From assembly GCA_014730055.1 (NCBI GenBank), contig WJIV01000108.1, positions 1-25,426 of the forward strand: a stretch of 25,426 nt of DNA, given 5' to 3'. Under the pieces are notes generated by a model that was not told the origin of the DNA, searched no databases, and was given only the letters and a program-made list of their open reading frames with translations. This stretch comes from Candidatus Bathyarchaeota archaeon (GTDB lineage: Archaea; Thermoproteota; Bathyarchaeia; TCS64). Numbering within the stretch: position 1 is the first letter of the stretch; each line of letters opens with the position of its first letter. Shown piece by piece: positions 3,428 through 25,363 of this stretch. A program made the position numbers and the translations under genes.

Positions 3428-4363
3428 ATGGAACTTTCAAGCGAGAAAAAGTTGGATTTGTACCGGGAAATGGTCCGAATAAGGACCTTTGAGAACGGTG
3501 TCAGGCAGCTAATCCAGGAGGGAAGAATAGGTCATGTATCTTTTTCAACGGGGGGTGAGGCGGTGGCAGTTGGCGTCTGTGCTCATTTAAATAACGATGA
3601 TCAGATTGGGAGCACTCACAGACCTCTTGGTCATCTAATCGCTAAGGGTTCGGACCTTAGTAAGATGATGGCCGAGATAGCGGCTAAGAAGACCGGATAT
3701 AATAAGGGAAAAGGCGGCCCATACCACCTCTTCGCACCAGAGGTCGGAGCACTGGGAGCAAACGGTATAGTTGGTGGAAGTGTACCCATGTGCGCAGGAT
3801 ATGCTCTAGCTAACCAGTTAAAAGGGACAGATAATGTCTCAGTGAGTTTCTTCGGTGAGGGAGCAAGCAATCAGGGAGGAGTTCAGGAAACACTGAATCT
3901 GGCTGCCTGCTGGAATCTACCGATAGTTTTCGTCTGCGAGAATAGCAGCCCTGAGGTTCAGACCATGTTAGGGCACGAGATAGACTATCCTCAGCTTAGC
4001 ATAGAGAATGTGAGTGATAGGGCCATTGCTTACGGAATGCACGGGTCAAGTCATGATGGATGGGATGTAATAGAAGTATATTCTGCAGCGTCTGAAGCTA
4101 TACAACGCGCAAGGGATGGAGGGGGACCAACCTTGCTGGAGTTCAAGATTCACAGGATAAGCCCTGATGAGGAAACAAAATTTGATCCAGTGCGTTCTTA
4201 CAGGGAGAGTTTGATTGAAGAAGGAATCCTAACAAAGGAAGTTGATGAGAAAACACGTGAAAAACAAGCTGAAGAAGTTAAGAAAGCAATAGACTACGCA
4301 ATCGGCAGTCCTGAACCAGAACTCCTTGATGCTTGGAAAGACATTTTCGTGGAGGGTTCCTAG
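3428..4363 (+). CDS. E1-alpha subunit homologue of 2-oxoacid/acetoin dehydrogenase, altered active site
   Basis: The 311-residue protein is homologous along its length to the ThDP-binding alpha subunit of pyruvate, branched-chain 2-oxoacid and acetoin dehydrogenases (AKKTGYNKGKGGPYH, GASNQGGVQETLNLAA, LPIVFVCEN). It is shorter than most at the C-terminus. Key residues differ. The metal-binding GDG is GEG (E144). The second Asn of the ENN motif, which ligates Mg2+ in family structures, is Ser (S173). RGHGH is RPLGH (66-69). The phosphorylation-loop HGHS region reads HRISPDEE (242-249), so the usual loop His is absent. It forms an operon with the E1-beta gene next to it. The protein may have changed reaction, use the cofactor differently, or act structurally. 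No E2 or E3 gene is nearby. A likely box near 3399-3406 suggests a leaderless transcript. Confidence 0.85.
   Translation: MELSSEKKLDLYREMVRIRTFENGVRQLIQEGRIGHVSFSTGGEAVAVGVCAHLNNDDQIGSTHRPLGHLIAKGSDLSKMMAEIAAKKTGYNKGKGGPYHLFAPEVGALGANGIVGGSVPMCAGYALANQLKGTDNVSVSFFGEGASNQGGVQETLNLAACWNLPIVFVCENSSPEVQTMLGHEIDYPQLSIENVSDRAIAYGMHGSSHDGWDVIEVYSAASEAIQRARDGGGPTLLEFKIHRISPDEETKFDPVRSYRESLIEEGILTKEVDEKTREKQAEEVKKAIDYAIGSPEPELLDAWKDIFVEGS
4351..4355 (+). promoter_or_regulatory. GGAGG ribosome-binding site for the E1-beta homologue
   Basis: GGAGG ends 8 nt before the ATG at 4364, and the E1-alpha TAG stop immediately precedes that ATG. This fixes the start and indicates translational coupling. Confidence 0.8.
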
Positions 4364-5335
4364 ATGAGCGATCGTTCAATAACATATGCCGAGGCCATCA
4401 ATGAAGCTCAGCGCCAATCAATGAGAAGAGACGAAGATATCATCATTTTCGGTGAGAACGTTTCTAGCAATTGGAGGGCAGCTACCAAGGGCTTAAAGGA
4501 GAACTTCGGTGCAGAACGAGTAAGAGATGCCCCCATAACAGAGACCAGCTTCATTGGTGCAGGCGTAGGTGCTGCAATCGCGGGTTTAAAGCCAATAGTT
4601 GAACTCATGCTTGTTGACTTCAGTTTAGTGGCCATGGATCAAATTCTAAATCAGATGGCCAAGACCACCTATATGACCGGGGGCAGTGTCAACATACCCA
4701 TGGTTCTGAGAACAATATATGGTGCAGGTGGCGGAAACGCTGCGACTCACAGTGAATCCCTCTACGGATTGTATGCTCATATGCCGGGAATGAAGATTAT
4801 TGTCCCAAGCTTACCTTATGATGCCAAGGGACTTCTGCTCCAGGCAATCGAGGACCTTAATCCTGTGGTTTTCTTCGAGCATAGATTACTATACGGAACT
4901 GAAGGTAGAGTACCAGAGGAAGAGTACACTATACCCTTTGGGGTAGCGAATTTGCTCAGAGAAGGAGATGATGTGACTGTCGTTGCTGTTGGTAAAATGG
5001 TCCATGAGGCGATCAAGGCAGCGGATGAGTTACGAGGAGAGGTCAGTGTCGAGGTGATCGATCCCCGTACTCTCGTTCCACTGGATGAGGAGAGAATATT
5101 AAACAGCCTAGCAAAGACGGGAAGATTGGTTGTTGTTGATGAGGATTACGAGCGATGTGGGTTCAGCGCAGAGGTAGCTGCTATTGCCGCAGAAAAGGGC
5201 TTTCAAAACCTTGAGGCACCTGTCGTCAGAGTTGCAAATCCAAATATCCCCTTGCCCTTCAATAGAAGTCTCGAGCGCCATGTCCTTCCAGACGCAGATA
5301 AGATCATCCGGGCTGTCAGGAATATAGTATTTTAA
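4364..5335 (+). CDS. E1-beta subunit homologue of 2-oxoacid/acetoin dehydrogenase
   Basis: The 323-residue protein is a full-length transketolase-like E1-beta. The conserved Glu that activates the ThDP aminopyrimidine ring is present (E60 in APITETSFIGAG), and so is an active-site His (H129 in THSES; usual family form QHSQ). DFSLVAMDQILNQMAK, PGMKIIVPS and PYDAKGLL are typical of the family. The C-terminal domain (about 195-323) carries the usual VIDPRTLVPLD strand. It starts directly after the alpha stop codon with a good GGAGG. Unlike the alpha subunit it looks largely conventional. Together they should form an alpha2beta2 heterotetramer. A lipoyl E2 partner is not encoded here, so the substrate and acceptor are unknown. 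Confidence 0.87.
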   Translation: MSDRSITYAEAINEAQRQSMRRDEDIIIFGENVSSNWRAATKGLKENFGAERVRDAPITETSFIGAGVGAAIAGLKPIVELMLVDFSLVAMDQILNQMAKTTYMTGGSVNIPMVLRTIYGAGGGNAATHSESLYGLYAHMPGMKIIVPSLPYDAKGLLLQAIEDLNPVVFFEHRLLYGTEGRVPEEEYTIPFGVANLLREGDDVTVVAVGKMVHEAIKAADELRGEVSVEVIDPRTLVPLDEERILNSLAKTGRLVVVDEDYERCGFSAEVAAIAAEKGFQNLEAPVVRVANPNIPLPFNRSLERHVLPDADKIIRAVRNIVF

Positions 5336-9317: not shown

Positions 9318-9662
9318 ATGATAAGCAGCAAGATAAAACTCAAAGTACAATCGGTGAAAGCAGTAAAAGATCCTGAGAATAGAGAAGCCTTCCAAATTGA
9401 CTTCGTGGAAGTTAGGACGAAACCCCCAATGGTTATGATGAGTAATCCTGAGGTTCCAGAAGAGATAAACCAGATGGTGGTACAGGTAACCAAAAGCTTC
9501 CAGGGCTTGATGCCTGGGACTCAGTCTGGAACTTATGAGCAGCGAAAACTCACATTAATCCTAACAGGAGAGGAACTTGAGAGCTTCAACTTGAAACCTT
9601 ACCCGAATCAGACTTACACATTAACGATAACCGATAAGGAACTATTATTTGAGGAAGTCTAA
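9318..9662 (+). CDS. Small conserved-looking protein of unknown function
   Basis: The 114-residue acidic soluble protein seems to be mostly beta, with a central helix (PEEINQMVVQVTKSFQGL). It has no Cys, signal peptide or membrane helix. I do not recognise it with confidence. Its outline (beta strand, PxxPEEI, a helix, then KLTLILTGEELESF) recalls the small Arcadin-1-like archaeal proteins, but there is no actin gene nearby, so that label is weak. The ATG lies 44 bp after the PRPP synthetase stop. TATATA at 9308-9313 is too close to be its TATA box, so it is probably cotranscribed with prs. Confidence 0.6.
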   Translation: MISSKIKLKVQSVKAVKDPENREAFQIDFVEVRTKPPMVMMSNPEVPEEINQMVVQVTKSFQGLMPGTQSGTYEQRKLTLILTGEELESFNLKPYPNQTYTLTITDKELLFEEV

Positions 9663-13301: not shown

Positions 13302-13436
13302 TTATATATGTTCTTTATGTAGATTCTCGCAGCAATATTTAGTTTCTTTACCGTTCTCTTCAATCTTCACTCTCATGAATTCGCAGTCTTCATCTTCCGC
13401 TGCTTCACATATCATGCATTTTATTTTCTTACTCAT
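13302..13436 (-). CDS. 44-residue Cys-rich protein coupled to iscU
   Basis: This gene is read by hand from the minus strand. The 44-residue product starts MSKKIKCMICEAAEDEDCEF and ends CCENLHKEHI. It has a CxxC pair (C7, C10), C18 and a CC pair (C35, C36), and is charged and soluble. The ATG overlaps the IscU stop as ATGA, so translation is coupled. The CxxC...CC layout looks like a small zinc ribbon or an Fe-S/sulfur-binding peptide. Position suggests a role with IscS/IscU, for instance as a sulfur or iron partner, but this is inferred from location only. I do not recognise a named family. Confidence 0.7.
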   Translation of the reverse strand: MSKKIKCMICEAAEDEDCEFMRVKIEENGKETKYCCENLHKEHI

Positions 13437-13804
13437 TCTTTTTTCTTCTCTCTGTAGTTTTTAATTGCCTCATGAAGTGCATCAGCAGCTAAGTTACTGC
13501 AGTGCATCTTCACTGGAGGTAACCCTTCTAGGGCTTCTGCTACTTCCTGCTTTGTGATGTTCATTGCTTCGTCCAGAGTTTTACCTTTAGCTAGCTCTGT
13601 GGTCATGCTGCTTGTAGCTATGGCAGCACCACATCCAAATGTCTTGAATTTTATATCTTCAATTTTCTCGTCTTTAACCTTGATGTACATCGTCATCATA
13701 TCACCGCAGACCGGGTTTCCAACTGTTCCTTCCGAGTCCGCGTCCTCCATCTCACCCACATTCCTTGGGTTCTTGAAATGATCTAAGACCTTTTCACTAT
13801 ACAT
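13433..13804 (-). CDS. iscU: Iron-sulfur cluster scaffold IscU/NifU N-domain
   Basis: The 123-residue scaffold has the three conserved cysteines C33 (NPVCGD), C58 (FGCGAA) and C102 (HCSNLA), plus D35 that controls cluster release in IscU proteins. Fe-S clusters are assembled here and passed to apo-proteins. ATG 13804 directly follows the TAA stop of iscS, and GAGGAG inside iscS lies about 10 nt upstream, so expression is coupled. The IscU stop overlaps the ATG of the 44-residue Cys protein. In A. fulgidus an IscS-IscU pair with the same layout forms an (IscS-IscU)2 complex holding a [2Fe-2S] cluster. Confidence 0.95.
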   Translation of the reverse strand: MYSEKVLDHFKNPRNVGEMEDADSEGTVGNPVCGDMMTMYIKVKDEKIEDIKFKTFGCGAAIATSSMTTELAKGKTLDEAMNITKQEVAEALEGLPPVKMHCSNLAADALHEAIKNYREKKKE

Positions 13805-14980
13805 TTATTTCAGCTCCTCAGGGGTTAGGGGCGACATAGATCTGAGCCTCTTTACTACCCCCGGTAGTTGATTGACTACGTATTCCACTTGTTGGTTGTT
13901 ATTATTTCTTCCTAGAGTAAAAACTAGGCTACCATGTGCTTCCTCATGTTTTAGGCCACAAGCGAGTAATGTGTGGCTTGGCTCTAGGGTCTTTGCCGCG
14001 CAAGCTGATCCTGATGATACCATTATCCCTAGCTCGTCAAGGCTCATAATCAATGCCTCGCCTTCTATATAGCTGAACCTTATATTGGCGTTGTTTGGAA
14101 GTCGTCTATTCGGATGCCCATTCAAGTAGCTGTCAGGAATCTCCAGTAATCCATATATCAATCCATCTCTAAGCTTGGTCAATCTATTAGACTCTTCTTT
14201 CATCTCTTTGATAGCGATCTCTGCTGCTTTTCCCATACCAACCATCCCTGGGATATTCTCACTACCTGAACGTAAGCCCCTCTCCTGACCACCACCAATC
14301 ATCTGAGGTTTAACTCTGATCCCTTCTCTCATATAGAGAGCACCCATGCCTTTGGGTCCGTATATATCATTGCTGCTTAGGCTCATGAGATCAACATCCA
14401 TATTCTTGGAATCTAATTCTATTTGTCCTATCGCGGCAGCTGCGTCGCTGTGAAATAGAGCGTCATTATCATGTGCAATTTTAGCTGCCTCTTTAACAGG
14501 CTGGATGGTCCCTATTTCACCATTGGCGACCATTACAGAGACTAGCATAGTATTTTTATCGACCATTTCATCAAGTTCTTCTAGATCAACTGTTCCAGTG
14601 TTACAAACAGGACATGTTTCAACTACAAAGCCTTGCCGTGTAAGCTCTTTACAAATATTTATTGTTGATATATGTTCCACTGCTGAGATAACAACTCTTT
14701 TTCCTTTTTTGCTGTAACGTCCAGTTGCACCTAGTATTGCTAAGTTGGATGCTTCAGTAGCACTTGATGTAAAAATTATCTCTTCTGCGCTGGCATTAAC
14801 TAGCTCTGCGACTTTAGTCCTAGAAGTATTCATTGCTTCTAATGCCTCGAAGCCTTTAGAATGGAAACTTGCTGGATTACCATATTTCTCTGTGAAAAAT
14901 GGGTTCATTTCTTCGATAACCCTAGGATCCACTGGTTTCCCAGACCCATGATCCATATAGGCGGTCAGGTGATTGGACAT
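13805..14980 (-). CDS. iscS: IscS/NifS cysteine desulfurase homologue lacking the PLP lysine
   Basis: The 391-residue protein has the class V aminotransferase fold and all desulfurase landmarks, including the mobile-loop cysteine C327 (VSSGSACAAK) and the stacking histidine H103. The PLP-binding site is changed: the usual HK before the GPKG loop is N204-D205, and the Asp-x-x-Gln that holds PLP is DAAA (D179, Gln replaced by Ala). The codons for N204-D205 are AAT GAT at 14371-14366, so this is not a translation slip. A. fulgidus IscS is known to carry Asp in place of this Lys and to lack desulfurase activity without repair. Here IscS may act as a cluster-assembly partner supplied with sulfide. 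The gene heads an iscS-iscU-Cys protein operon; its box at 15008-15015 predicts a leaderless start. Confidence 0.93.
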   Translation of the reverse strand: MSNHLTAYMDHGSGKPVDPRVIEEMNPFFTEKYGNPASFHSKGFEALEAMNTSRTKVAELVNASAEEIIFTSSATEASNLAILGATGRYSKKGKRVVISAVEHISTINICKELTRQGFVVETCPVCNTGTVDLEELDEMVDKNTMLVSVMVANGEIGTIQPVKEAAKIAHDNDALFHSDAAAAIGQIELDSKNMDVDLMSLSSNDIYGPKGMGALYMREGIRVKPQMIGGGQERGLRSGSENIPGMVGMGKAAEIAIKEMKEESNRLTKLRDGLIYGLLEIPDSYLNGHPNRRLPNNANIRFSYIEGEALIMSLDELGIMVSSGSACAAKTLEPSHTLLACGLKHEEAHGSLVFTLGRNNNNQQVEYVVNQLPGVVKRLRSMSPLTPEELK

Positions 14981-21506: not shown

Positions 21507-23963
21507 TTATTCGTATTTTTCATCATAAGCGGTTAATAACTTCAATAAAGCAGACCGGCTTACCATACCTAGAGGACGATTGCTCTTATCCAGTACCGGC
21601 AATCGTTTCAACTCATTATCTATTAAAACTCTAAGAGCAACAACAGCATTATCATCACTACAAACCGATAAAACAGGAGACGTCATAATATCCCTCGCCA
21701 AAAAAGAGACATCAACTCCTGTAGTGGAGAACCCAGAAAGTCTATCAACAACAAAAATTCTATCGTCCTCACTTAACCGAGTTATTAGATCATTATCCGT
21801 GATAATTCCCTTAATCTTGGCATCAGCATCCACAACTAGAACTCGTCTAACCTTATTCTGAATCATTACTTCAATTATTTCCCCAACATCGGCGTTCTCG
21901 TCAACTGAAAATGGACGCTCTAACTCAGCTAACCCAACGGGTAATTCACAACAAATCATATTACATTCTTGTAATGCAACCATATCGGAAAACACTAAAA
22001 ATCTGAGAATATCTGAACGCGTTATGACACCAATTAAATGATGATTATCATCAACAACCGGAACCCTCTTTAAATTCATCTCATTAAAAATGTTTACAGC
22101 ATCACCCAGTCTATCCTTAATACCCAAGCAAATAACAGGAGAACTCATAATATCCTTAACTGAATAATCAAATACACCTTTGAGAACTTTTAATCGTTCA
22201 ACTTTAGATAACTTCATTAGATGTGTAAGACTAGGAACCCCAATCTTTTCAAGATCATTATCCGTAACAAAACCAACAACATGATTTTCTCGATCTATAA
22301 CAGGTAAGCCACGAACACCTTCACTTAAAGCAGCCTCAACCAGAGAATTTATAGAAGTATCCAAATTAACACTAACCGGTTTTCGCGTCATAATAGATGA
22401 AATAAAACGATTAGAGATATCGCCCTTAAGCCCAGGTATTGCAGGCAACCACCCAGTATCCATTCTCTCAATATACTCCATTAAACTCTCATTAGGACCA
22501 ACCTCAACATAAGGTACCTTTGGTACTTCAACCCGTTGAGTCCCATAGATACTTCTATGCCCAGAAGCAAGATACGCCATATAACAGCTGATTATCACAA
22601 AAGAGGTAATTTCACCTCCAAACAACTCAACAGCCATTATACTACATGCAAGAGGGGTATTACTACACCCAGCAAAAACAGATACAAAACCCACACTAGC
22701 CATCAAGGTAGGATCTACACCAAAAATACCGCCAAGGGCGTACCCTAATGTACTACCAATGACAAAAAGAGGAGTCACCTCACCGCCAAGATAACCAGAG
22801 CCGAGGGTTATAGCGGTAAAAATGATCTTTAACAGAAACGTATACCATTCGACTCCCGAGCCATCCATGGTTTTAGTGATTAATGGTAGGCTAAGACCTA
22901 GATATTCAATTGTTGGAAATAGATATACCAGTATAAGTAAGGTTAATCCTCCAACAACTGGGTGAAGGGTTTTCCATTTCAATCTTAGATTTAAAACATG
23001 TTTTATTCCATGAATTAACTCGATAAACATTATGCTTGCGAGACCAAAAACTAACCCCATTATAGCTAGTTTAATCATAGTAACTGCGTCCAAGCTTACC
23101 TGTGAAATATGAGGATAATGACTATGTGTAGCACCAAGAGCTCTGGTAACAAAATCCCCGATAAATGACGCAACCAGACAAGGTATTAACCCATCGTACT
23201 GAACACGGCCAAGTTTTTGAACCTCCATTCCGAAAACGAGACCAGCCACAGGGGTACCAAACACTGATCCAAAGCCTCCACTTATCCCCGCCATAATCAT
23301 AAGCCTTCTATCCTCTTTTCCTAAACCAGCTAACCTTCTGAAACCATCGGCTAGACTTGCCCCCATTTGTATCGCGGTTCCTTCCCTTCCCGCAGATCCT
23401 CCGAATAGATGGGTCGCAACAGTCCCCAGATACACTAGGGGAGCCATTTTTAGAGGAATCTGGTTTTTATTTGAATGAATTTCCTCTATTACAAGGTTGT
23501 TTCCCAGGGCAGCTATCCCAGCGTATCGATTATAAACATAGCCTATGATCAAGCCTACTAGAGGAAGAAGGTATATGAGGCGGGGATTAATAATCCGGGC
23601 GTTTGTTGCCCAGCCTAGGCTAATTAGAAATATCGCTGAAGCGGTCCCACTGAGTACCCCGATAAAAGATCCGATTATAGTCCATTTGATTAAATTCTCT
23701 AGTAAATTTCGGAAATCAACTAGGTTTAGATTGAATAAATTATCAATTATCTTGTATATTTTTTGCTTTCGGGCCTCGTTTTTTATTCTTTTTTTTGCTT
23801 GTTTTTCCCTCAGTTTAATTATCTTTTCAGGGTCATTAGCGTCTAATCCGCACCAGATGCATTTACCTTTATTTCCCCATTGTTTGCACCTAGGGCAGAC
23901 CATGAATGTTTCATCGAGTTCCTCGTTTTTGATCTTCCACCATTTTTTTAGTTTAGCTAGCAT
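21507..23963 (-). CDS. CLC-F-like fluoride/chloride transporter with zinc ribbon and four CBS domains
   Basis: The 818-residue protein begins with a cytosolic zinc ribbon (C23, C26, C35, C38) and a basic helix (about 45-70). The ClC membrane domain follows (about 90-490) with GSAGREGTAIQMG (the gating Glu), GSVFGTPVAG, GGEVTPLFVIG and GCSNTPLACSIM; the GREGT and GGEVTPLF forms are those of the fluoride-exporting CLC-F branch rather than classic GREGP chloride channels. Four CBS domains fill the C-terminus (about 520-580, 605-660, 680-740, 758-815) and usually sense adenine nucleotides. CLC-F proteins export fluoride in exchange for H+. The fluoride riboswitch directly upstream supports this. 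ATG 23963 has AGG 7 nt upstream. The zinc ribbon plus four CBS domains is a large regulatory addition compared with bacterial CLC-F, which usually has none. Confidence 0.9.
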   Translation of the reverse strand: MLAKLKKWWKIKNEELDETFMVCPRCKQWGNKGKCIWCGLDANDPEKIIKLREKQAKKRIKNEARKQKIYKIIDNLFNLNLVDFRNLLENLIKWTIIGSFIGVLSGTASAIFLISLGWATNARIINPRLIYLLPLVGLIIGYVYNRYAGIAALGNNLVIEEIHSNKNQIPLKMAPLVYLGTVATHLFGGSAGREGTAIQMGASLADGFRRLAGLGKEDRRLMIMAGISGGFGSVFGTPVAGLVFGMEVQKLGRVQYDGLIPCLVASFIGDFVTRALGATHSHYPHISQVSLDAVTMIKLAIMGLVFGLASIMFIELIHGIKHVLNLRLKWKTLHPVVGGLTLLILVYLFPTIEYLGLSLPLITKTMDGSGVEWYTFLLKIIFTAITLGSGYLGGEVTPLFVIGSTLGYALGGIFGVDPTLMASVGFVSVFAGCSNTPLACSIMAVELFGGEITSFVIISCYMAYLASGHRSIYGTQRVEVPKVPYVEVGPNESLMEYIERMDTGWLPAIPGLKGDISNRFISSIMTRKPVSVNLDTSINSLVEAALSEGVRGLPVIDRENHVVGFVTDNDLEKIGVPSLTHLMKLSKVERLKVLKGVFDYSVKDIMSSPVICLGIKDRLGDAVNIFNEMNLKRVPVVDDNHHLIGVITRSDILRFLVFSDMVALQECNMICCELPVGLAELERPFSVDENADVGEIIEVMIQNKVRRVLVVDADAKIKGIITDNDLITRLSEDDRIFVVDRLSGFSTTGVDVSFLARDIMTSPVLSVCSDDNAVVALRVLIDNELKRLPVLDKSNRPLGMVSRSALLKLLTAYDEKYE

Positions 23964-23968
23964 TTAGA

Positions 23969-23974
23969 CGCCTA
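23969..23974 (-). promoter_or_regulatory. Ribosome-binding region complementary to riboswitch P1
   Basis: UAGGCG ends 5 nt before ATG 23963, and its AGG is the best Shine-Dalgarno present. It is the exact complement of CGCCUA at 24025-24020 inside the aptamer. Confidence 0.55.
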
Positions 23975-23988
23975 TCTTTGGTTTTTAT

Positions 23989-24037
23989 GGTAGAAGCTAT
24001 TAGCTCACTTTGAGCGGTTTAGGCGAGCCTCATCGCC
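23989..24037 (-). ncRNA. Fluoride riboswitch (crcB motif)
   Basis: On the minus strand the 49-nt element begins GGCGATGAGGCTCGCC, followed by the linker TAAAC and hairpin GCTCA-AAG-TGAGC, and ends TAATAGCTTCTACC. This is almost the layout of the Thermotoga petrophila fluoride aptamer (GGGCGATGAGGCCCGCCC, then AAAC, a hairpin and TGATGGCCTCTACTG). P1 is GGCGA/TCGCC. The loop GAGGCT can pair with AGCTTC near the 3' end as the pseudoknot, with one G-U pair. It lies 25 nt before the start codon of the CLC-F-like gene, as expected for a fluoride-controlled exporter. Fluoride riboswitches are known in bacteria and archaea. Confidence 0.93.
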
Positions 24038-24062
24038 GATAGACAATGAGAATAACAATATC

Positions 24063-24069
24063 ATATATA
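24063..24069 (-). promoter_or_regulatory. TATA box for the riboswitch-ClC transcript
   Basis: TATATAT on the minus strand predicts a start point near 24040, a few bases before the aptamer begins at 24037. Confidence 0.6.
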
Positions 24070-24110
24070 CATTTTTCTTACAAATATGGAATTAATCCCT
24101 ATAATATTAA

Positions 24111-25324
24111 GAGGATTTTGATTATCTTTTGTTTCATGGTTTTTGACTGTTTTTGTCATCTAGTTCTGTTGATAGCAGCCCCAGAAGGAATGAAAAATCA
24201 TACTTAACTACCCCGTAACAGCCTCCAAGCCACCAGAGGAGCCCCAGATCACCCCTTTCACTCCTCCCAGCGCCCTTCTCCACGACGAGATCGATAGCCC
24301 ACGCTGTCAGCCACCGCCCAGCGCCTTCAACTGAACCAGATTATAACAAAAACACGCGAACACCATCTTAATGTGAACCCGTTCAACAGTGGTCACCAGC
24401 ACGTGACCTGAGCCAAACACACGCTTAACAACGGCGAAAACTCTCTCAATGGGAGCCCTCTTCCTGTTAATCCGCCTGTTACGAAGCCGGTCCCGTATAC
24501 CCAGCGGGTGACCCCGCGTCCCACGCTTCATAGTAGCATCATAGCCCCGAGGCTCCACACCGAAGAAACCCTTATCCCGGTACACCACCTCACCAGGCAG
24601 GGAGAGATCAACCTGGCTGTCATGAACATTCGCCGGCGTCGTCTCCAGATCCCTGACCAAGCGATGATCCACGTCCGTCTTAGCGTGCAGCTTATACCCA
24701 TAGCTGGACTTGGCTCCCTTTTTAGCCCACTCACCGTCCCTGCTCCTCCGGGTCTTGGCCTCCTCACCACGGGGCTCCTCAGCCGGCGCGTGGCCCGGGT
24801 CACTGGTGATAAAGGTGGCGTCCTGAGCCACGCCCTTCCGGACAGTTAACCCCTTCAGGTCAAGCTGGCGCTGCAGCTCAGCCCACACCAGCCTGTCCCT
24901 GCCCGTCTCGGCGAGGCGCTCCCTGAAATACCAGACCGTGCTATAGTCAGGCAGAGAGTCAGGGAACTCGAGGAAGTGCATGAAGCTTATCCTGTCGTTG
25001 ACCTGACGCTCTAGCTCAGGGTCGCTGAGCCCGTACCACGCCTGGAGCACGAGCATCTTCACCATGATGACCGGGTCGATGTTGGGGCGGCCTCCCATGG
25101 GTCCCTGGTTGTCAAAGATGGGCTGGATCACTGGCCTGAAGGCGTCCCAGTCGATGAGAGGCTCCACCTCAGCTAGCTTGTCACCTAGTTTAAAGATCTT
25201 TTTGTACTGTTGATGGAAAAAGTATGCCGCTAAGGAGCTCATATTTACAGCTTATCACGGTGATCTATAAGTTTAACCCCAGGGGGCGAAAAACACCACA
25301 AAACAGAGGTTAATCAAAATTCTC
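24111..25324 (-). mobile_element. Complete IS5-family insertion sequence, 1214 bp
   Basis: The ends are imperfect inverted repeats. Left GAGGATTTTGATTATC and right (reverse complement) GAGAATTTTGATTAACC agree at 13 of the first 14 positions, with patchy similarity for about 20 bp more (TGTTT..TGGT.TTT). Both ends are flanked by TTAA (24107-24110 and 25325-25328), a 4-bp target duplication that fits the YTAR target of IS5-group elements. The interior is markedly richer in G+C than both flanks. One uninterrupted transposase gene fills most of it. Length is usual for the family. The intact reading frame and repeats suggest fairly recent arrival. Confidence 0.85.
24307..25242 (-). CDS. IS5-family DDE transposase
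   Basis: The 311-residue transposase has the N-terminal IS5 domain (about 45-125; GRPNIDPVIMVKMLVLQAWYGLSD) and a DDE catalytic core. The acidic triad fits D141 (AQDATFITSD), D223 (VYRDKGFFG) and E266 (APIERVFAVVKR), with the IS5 Y-R-K style motif APIERVFAVVKRVF. The C-terminus CFCYNLVQL is typical. The frame is intact, so it may be active. Codon use is GC-rich compared with neighbours, showing horizontal origin. A TTAAACTTATA sequence about 30 bp upstream of ATG 25242 may be its promoter. Confidence 0.93.
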   Translation of the reverse strand: MSSLAAYFFHQQYKKIFKLGDKLAEVEPLIDWDAFRPVIQPIFDNQGPMGGRPNIDPVIMVKMLVLQAWYGLSDPELERQVNDRISFMHFLEFPDSLPDYSTVWYFRERLAETGRDRLVWAELQRQLDLKGLTVRKGVAQDATFITSDPGHAPAEEPRGEEAKTRRSRDGEWAKKGAKSSYGYKLHAKTDVDHRLVRDLETTPANVHDSQVDLSLPGEVVYRDKGFFGVEPRGYDATMKRGTRGHPLGIRDRLRNRRINRKRAPIERVFAVVKRVFGSGHVLVTTVERVHIKMVFACFCYNLVQLKALGGG

Positions 25325-25363
25325 TTAAGTTTATAAAAAGAATATATCAAAAGATATCGTCCT

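Follow-up and report, generated by a model that had tools for sequence, protein, structure and literature searches.

A fluoride riboswitch upstream of an archaeal CLC-F gene and its possible competition with codons 7-10 of the transporter

Introduction

The crcB RNAs of bacteria and archaea were described in 2010, and in many cases the predicted terminators overlap the motif (PMC2864571). In Thermococcus, a crcB RNA is transcribed and is positioned upstream of TK0513 (PMC4247193). The fluoride riboswitch of Thermococcus, for which PMC8241225 and PMC8814607 cite Speed et al. 2018, is presumed to control translation, and one paper from 2021 names it as the sole archaeal riboswitch that had been determined experimentally (PMC8241225). 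For the class as a whole, 1901 fluoride riboswitch sequences were characterized with terminators in focus (PMC13273304). Here, we describe a fluoride riboswitch aptamer on the minus strand of contig WJIV01000108.1 (assembly GCA_014730055.1, Candidatus Bathyarchaeota archaeon), upstream of a gene for a CLC-F type fluoride/proton antiporter. The window, the whole stretch of DNA that was analyzed, is 25,426 nucleotides (nt) long. The RNA is an additional archaeal example of an established class before a CLC-F gene, and we tentatively propose that it activates the exporter, most likely at translation, through a helix formed with codons 7-10 of the gene; our confidence in this proposal falls somewhat short of even.

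The Thermococcus riboswitch and the RNA in the window are both archaeal, with translation as the presumed or likely level of control; the lineage and the downstream gene are different, and the element used in the 2018 work may have come from Pyrobaculum. Synthetic theophylline riboswitches of Haloferax volcanii (PMC8241225) are similar to our proposal in that the start codon is buried in an archaeon when the ligand is absent, but those devices are engineered and place the Shine-Dalgarno (SD) sequence and the AUG directly in secondary structure. Fluoride control of translation in an archaeon, which the sequence-only reading of the window had put forward as a testable mechanism, is thus an idea already in print for Thermococcus (PMC8241225). 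Among the matches listed in the open-licence literature, at the level of titles and the beginnings of abstracts, there was no fluoride riboswitch from Bathyarchaeota and no coding-region expression platform for the fluoride class.

Results

The presence of a fluoride aptamer is confirmed, far above chance. The cmscan search of Rfam returned a full-length match to RF01734 (1-64 of 64) with 51.0 bits, relative to a gathering score of 34, and an E value of 1.3e-11. It is the sole fluoride aptamer found in the window by this search (24046-23984, minus strand). The sequence-only reading had recognized the crcB motif and a CLC-F transporter downstream of it, and both assignments agree with our results: P1, the pseudoknot, and P3 are all legible in the RNA, and the gene product has a CLC domain and a CLC-F protein as its best solved relative. 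The pseudoknot, as read from the sequence, connects the P1 loop to the 3' strand through six base pairs (GAGGCU/AGCUUC), including one G-U. The conserved CUAC of the aptamer is 26 nt from the start codon of the CLC-F gene. The aptamer would be expected to bind fluoride. The principal features are the following.

23984-24046, minus strand: fluoride riboswitch aptamer (RF01734, cmscan), core 24037-23989
24022-24037, minus strand: P1 hairpin, GGCG 24037-24034 with CGCC 24025-24022 (Rfam match and sequence)
24026-24031, minus strand: 5' pseudoknot strand GAGGCU, complementary to AGCUUC 23998-23993
23993-23998, minus strand: 3' pseudoknot strand AGCUUC, followed by the conserved UAC (Rfam match and sequence)
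24015-24011 and 24007-24003, minus strand: P3, GCUCA with UGAGC, from the computed fold
21507-23963, minus strand: gene for the CLC-F type fluoride/proton antiporter, 818 amino acids (Pfam, search for structural relatives, and signature motifs)
23961-23963, minus strand: AUG that opens the CLC-F frame, situated in the loop that helix B (below) encloses

The protein (P0001) contains the Pfam domain PF00654 (E 2e-69), four CBS stretches, and an N-terminal CxxC...CxxC segment. Its closest solved relative is the CLC-F structure 6d0j (E 3.2e-60), whereas the best chain of ClcA, a Cl-/H+ exchanger, reaches only 1.4e-11. The signatures of CLC-F proteins are GNNLI/GMGLI, GREGT/V, and GEVTP (PMC11139923), and the window protein reads GNNLV (V for I), GREGT, and GEVTP. 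From these features, P0001 appears to be a CLC-F fluoride/proton antiporter, with exchange activity predicted. A CLC-CBS homologue at another locus with a fluoride aptamer (L146, 38.6 bits) reads ASVGT at the GREGT position, which raises the question of its mode of transport.

The 3' strand of the pseudoknot is complementary not only to the P1 loop but also to a segment a few codons into the gene. The resulting helix, denoted here as helix B, has 10 base pairs (one G-U) and a duplex energy of -14.9 kcal/mol.

23987-23996, minus strand: 5' arm of helix B, CUUCUACCAU, overlapping the 3' pseudoknot strand and the conserved UAC, plus the tail
23934-23943, minus strand: 3' arm of helix B, AUGGUGGAAG, in the gene at codons 7-10 (Lys-Trp-Trp-Lys), a candidate competitor of the pseudoknot

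The RNA was folded at 37 °C from two starts (24040 and 24046) to three ends, and one extra fold was made at 60 °C. Helix B dominates the predicted ensemble, with a mean pair probability of 0.984-0.990 in all four 37 °C folds that include both arms and 0.948 in the 60 °C fold. In the folds with helix B, the probability of P1 is at least 0.82, except in the longest one from 24046 (0.22). The start codon and the leader are enclosed by helix B in a loop of 43 nt. Opening the region from -20 to +30 costs 16.2 kcal/mol when the 3' strand is free, compared with 6.5 kcal/mol when the pseudoknot and UAC are held. No run of four or more U is found in the 190 nt from 23989 onward. Termination at a U-tract was rejected on this ground, and translation is a likelier level of control than termination.

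When the 70 nt downstream were shuffled with dinucleotides preserved, 21 of 5000 sequences reached -14.9 kcal/mol with the 3' strand. When the aptamer side was varied instead, pairing as good as that of the native end was attained by 15 of 4000 ends in which both pseudoknot strand and tail were random and CUAC was retained, by 76 of 4000 in which the real strand carried a random tail, and by 3 of the 58 other natural aptamer ends swapped in. At this single archaeal locus, the aptamer appears to be fitted to the codons, and the codons do not appear to have been chosen.

Several homologues begin at the same alignment column as the ATG at 23963. An alternative start at codon 21 has the better pairing energy with the anti-SD sequence (-5.9, versus -2.4 at 23963), and the homologue P0019 begins at that methionine. 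The start at 23963 is nevertheless preferred, since P0002, P0003, P0006, P0010, P0017, and others share the roughly 20 residues of the N-terminal segment. If translation were to begin at codon 21, helix B would sit wholly within the leader. The null distribution for these energies, obtained from random 19-mers of the window, has a median of -2.6 and a 5% point of -7.5; two of the 18 gene starts checked (4364 and 13804) reach -9 or better. The AGG ahead of the start codon, which the sequence-only reading took as the only SD-like element, gives -2.4 and is thus not above chance as an SD sequence.

In 17 of the 23 bacterial loci compared, the best complement of the 3' strand was equalled by no more than 3 of 300 shuffles. 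By our reading of the sequence, 13 of the 23 complements lead directly into a U-run and the complement in L051 is the SD sequence; the remaining 9 were left unclassed. A mechanical survey, in which start codons were assigned by rule and are to be read as guesses, covered 59 distinct aptamers (58 and that of the window). The best complement was assigned to a terminator in 28, an upstream position in 13, the SD sequence or start in 11, and the open reading frame (ORF) in 6 (the window included), with 1 unclassified. At a level of at most 1 in 100 shuffles, the corresponding numbers are 26, 3, 3, 0, and 1. One in-ORF case, L182, has AUGGUGG at an offset similar to that of the window (4 of 100 shuffles): its early codons, UUAUGGUGG..., complement the 3' pseudoknot strand CUCCUACCAU, in a frame that we presume to be CrcB-like.

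Relative to the RF01734 class, the window has the full-length aptamer with P1, P3, and pseudoknot, an exporter downstream, and a possible downstream competitor for the 3' strand. It differs in that the best competitor lies in codons 7-10 rather than in a terminator or SD sequence, and in the lack of a U-run. Five clcF loci of Chloroflexota were inspected. L001, L002, and L146 carry an aptamer and a terminator, and no match to the fluoride aptamer was found in L003 and L007. In the clcF leaders of L001, L002, and L004, aptamer-like sequence occurs along with terminators of the form GGGTAGA(A/G)GC-T(n). The score of the L001 aptamer is 22.6 bits, and L001, L002, and L004 are not listed by cmscan at an E value of 0.05; the covariance model thus misses such variants. 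L001 (Anaerolineales) has GCGATGAGGCTCGC and TTAATAGCTTCTACC-like aptamer ends in common with the window and a transporter that is 57% identical in the best segment, but unlike the window it has a strong terminator-like hairpin (-21.2 kcal/mol) that leads into a U-run. In the clcF leader of L051 (Erythrobacter), which we read as translational in type, the 3' pseudoknot strand is likewise competed for at the translation start; there, however, the competitor AAGGAGGAAUC includes the SD sequence.

Upstream of the aptamer is a promoter-like site. The TATA/BRE-like pattern, which was composed after the site had been noticed, occurs at a single place (24075-24064) when both strands of the window are scanned. 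With the spacing between TATA box and start that is typical of archaea, the transcript is predicted to start at about A24040, three bases ahead of P1. The earlier claim that the TATA box sets the start just before the aptamer is consistent with this placement, with the reservation that the pattern is post hoc. The features of the promoter and of two further complementarities in the leader are as follows.

24064-24075, minus strand: TATA box TGTATATA (24071-24064) with upstream AA, BRE-like (sequence and pattern search)
24038-24044, minus strand: GUCUAUC, complementary (one G-U) to GAUAGGC 23976-23970; the complete helix requires transcription from 24044 or farther upstream
24020-24025, minus strand: CGCCUA, 3' strand of P1 and linker, the proposed masking strand (sequence)
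23969-23974, minus strand: UAGGCG, the proposed masked ribosome site (sequence), with anti-SD pairing no better than random

Farther upstream is an insertion-sequence-like unit (24100-25335), which stops about 25 nt short of the CLC-F promoter-like elements. It contains a transposase (DUF772/DDE_Tnp_1) at 24307-25242, flanked by inverted repeats of 45 nt (24100-24144 and 25291-25335, 80%).

The contig most likely belongs to a Bathyarchaeota-like archaeon, as judged from its RNase Z, an arcadin gene, and the TATA/BRE-like site. The four taxon-named proteins among the best 120 matches to RNase Z are from Candidatus Bathyarchaeota (66% and 62%), Thermoproteota (63%), and Promethearchaeota (61%), and a protein of the Arcadin_1 family is encoded at 9318-9662, adjoining RNase Z. 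Among the best 120 of 4349 matches to the CLC-F protein, all ten with a named taxon are from groups that we take, partly from general knowledge, to be Chloroflexota, and P0002 (72%) is the only close relative. A tree built from 68 proteins unites P0001 with P0002 at 100/100 support on a long stem (0.66); their placement among the Chloroflexota-type rows is unsettled, and the bootstrap did not converge. By plain alignment, the closest of the 58 aptamers is L164, from the search of the phylum of G006 (a Nitriliruptoraceae genome), and the next is L001. Given this unsettled position in the tree and these nearest aptamers, transfer of clcF from bacteria is suggested by the sequences, not demonstrated. 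A search of genome contigs gave at least 80 related loci, and the 80 retained were all bacterial by title. A search of viral contigs with P0002 gave no relative, the 59 stretches of viral contigs that fit the aptamer pattern included none that fit the fuller pattern, and a search of plasmids for related DNA gave no match.

Elsewhere in this archaeal-looking contig, genes similar to the E1 alpha and beta subunits of pyruvate dehydrogenase are adjacent (3428-5335), and a NifU_N gene stands beside a gene for a NifS-like cysteine desulfurase (13433-14980). By anti-SD score, the start of the nifU-like gene is in the top two of the 18 gene starts listed.

Discussion

In the mechanism that we propose, the segment CUUCUACCAU, which comprises the 3' pseudoknot strand, the UAC, and the tail, would leave the aptamer when fluoride is absent and pair with AUGGUGGAAG in codons 7-10. 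The start codon region would then be trapped in the 43-nt loop, and entry of the 30S subunit would require the opening of ten base pairs. With fluoride present, the pseudoknot would retain its 3' strand, helix B would be blocked, and the gene would be translated. Both the block to the ribosome and the ON direction are what we infer from this competition. The narrower claim, that the expression platform is inside the coding sequence, where codons 7-10 compete for the pseudoknot strand around a start codon that has no SD sequence and lies in the loop, is possible but is held with less confidence than activation itself.

A number of results weigh against this proposal. The cost of opening the region from -20 to +19 is equal in both states (5.3 and 5.2 kcal/mol), the pairing of the AUG barely shifts (unpaired probability of 0.12 with the strand free and 0.18 with it held), and a small hairpin, GGCGU/AUGCU, covers the AUG in both. 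With no modelled change at the AUG or between -20 and +19, a block would require that the loop sterically exclude the ribosome. Holding the six pseudoknot bases but not the UAC leaves part of helix B in place (codons 7-10 unpaired, 0.40). The shuffle support is weaker over longer spans (5 of 300 for 90 nt and 3 of 100 for 110 nt), two of the three successful swapped aptamer ends outpair the native one, the matching duplex is stronger than helix B in 21 of the 23 bacterial loci, and the level of 1 in 100 shuffles is not reached by any of the six in-ORF cases, which include the window. Some of these results would also be expected if the aptamer regulates and the Lys-Trp-Trp-Lys codons yield helix B as a by-product, with control exerted otherwise, for instance through local folding at the AUG, stability of the mRNA, or termination factors. 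When codons 2-20 are recoded synonymously, 1887 of 5000 versions pair equally well or better, which would accord with such a by-product; many recodings retain helix B because the two Trp codons have no synonymous alternatives, and the protein dictates much of the helix. Of the 19 aligned proteins, 7 have Trp-Trp. With the whole aptamer open to pairing, the strongest duplex with the 70 nt downstream has an energy of -18.0, which 1214 of 2000 shuffles attain, and without an excess in this control the estimate of chance depends on the 3' strand being named in advance. The scarcity of random and natural strands that equal helix B argues the other way, and helix B dominates the predicted ensemble regardless of its origin. 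We regard the by-product explanation as serious, although on the unlikely side.

The remaining explanations are much less probable. The sequence-only reading had proposed that, without fluoride, CGCCUA (24025-24020) masks UAGGCG (23974-23969) as the ribosome site. The six-base-pair complementarity is exact, as claimed, but it is matched by 541 of 5000 shuffled leaders, and the pairing disrupts P1. Its mean probability is 0.0 in five of the six 37 °C folds and 0.126 in the other, which starts at 24040 and ends at the AUG. Forcing the masking helix raises the energy over that of the best fold by 9-13 kcal/mol in the four 37 °C folds with coding sequence, and by 6.7 (start 24046) or 1.1 kcal/mol (start 24040) in the RNA that ends at the AUG. 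The latter value indicates that the helix may form transiently until codons 7-10 exist. Together with the anti-SD energy of the AGG, the folding and shuffle results disfavor SD masking by CGCCUA, which we consider very unlikely; of the earlier proposal, the aptamer, the CLC-F gene, the promoter-like site, and translational control in preference to termination retain support. A stem that closes around the aptamer and covers the leader, formed by the 5' flank GUCUAUC (24044-24038) and GAUAGGC (23976-23970), has a probability of 0.998 in the RNA from 24046 to the AUG. The full stem, however, requires transcription to begin no farther downstream than 24044, while the TATA-like site indicates about 24040, where its probability is at most 0.003, and even from 24046 it is outcompeted by helix B once codons 1-13 are present; we judge that it has little chance of being the switch. 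It is likewise improbable that the riboswitch came with the gene from a bacterial donor, which may have been Chloroflexota-like, and is now a remnant that no longer regulates. A remnant would account for the absence from the window of the U-rich terminator that accompanies the aptamers of L001, L002, and L146, and the protein is loosely grouped with Chloroflexota-type proteins. A decaying RNA should drift, however, and the window aptamer outscores those of both L146 and L001.

Few natural archaeal riboswitches have been tested so far, and the competition between the pseudoknot and codons 7-10 bears on how an aptamer common to bacteria and archaea controls genes that lack bacterial-type terminators and often an SD sequence. 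A terminator of the bacterial type is not expected to be read by archaeal RNA polymerase. The proposed competition is a concrete alternative to masking of an SD sequence, and the locus illustrates that a reading centered on the SD sequence can overlook stronger pairing a few codons into the gene. If the proposed competition is correct, codons of the transporter would also serve as an arm of the switch, replacing the terminator found in the Chloroflexota relatives.

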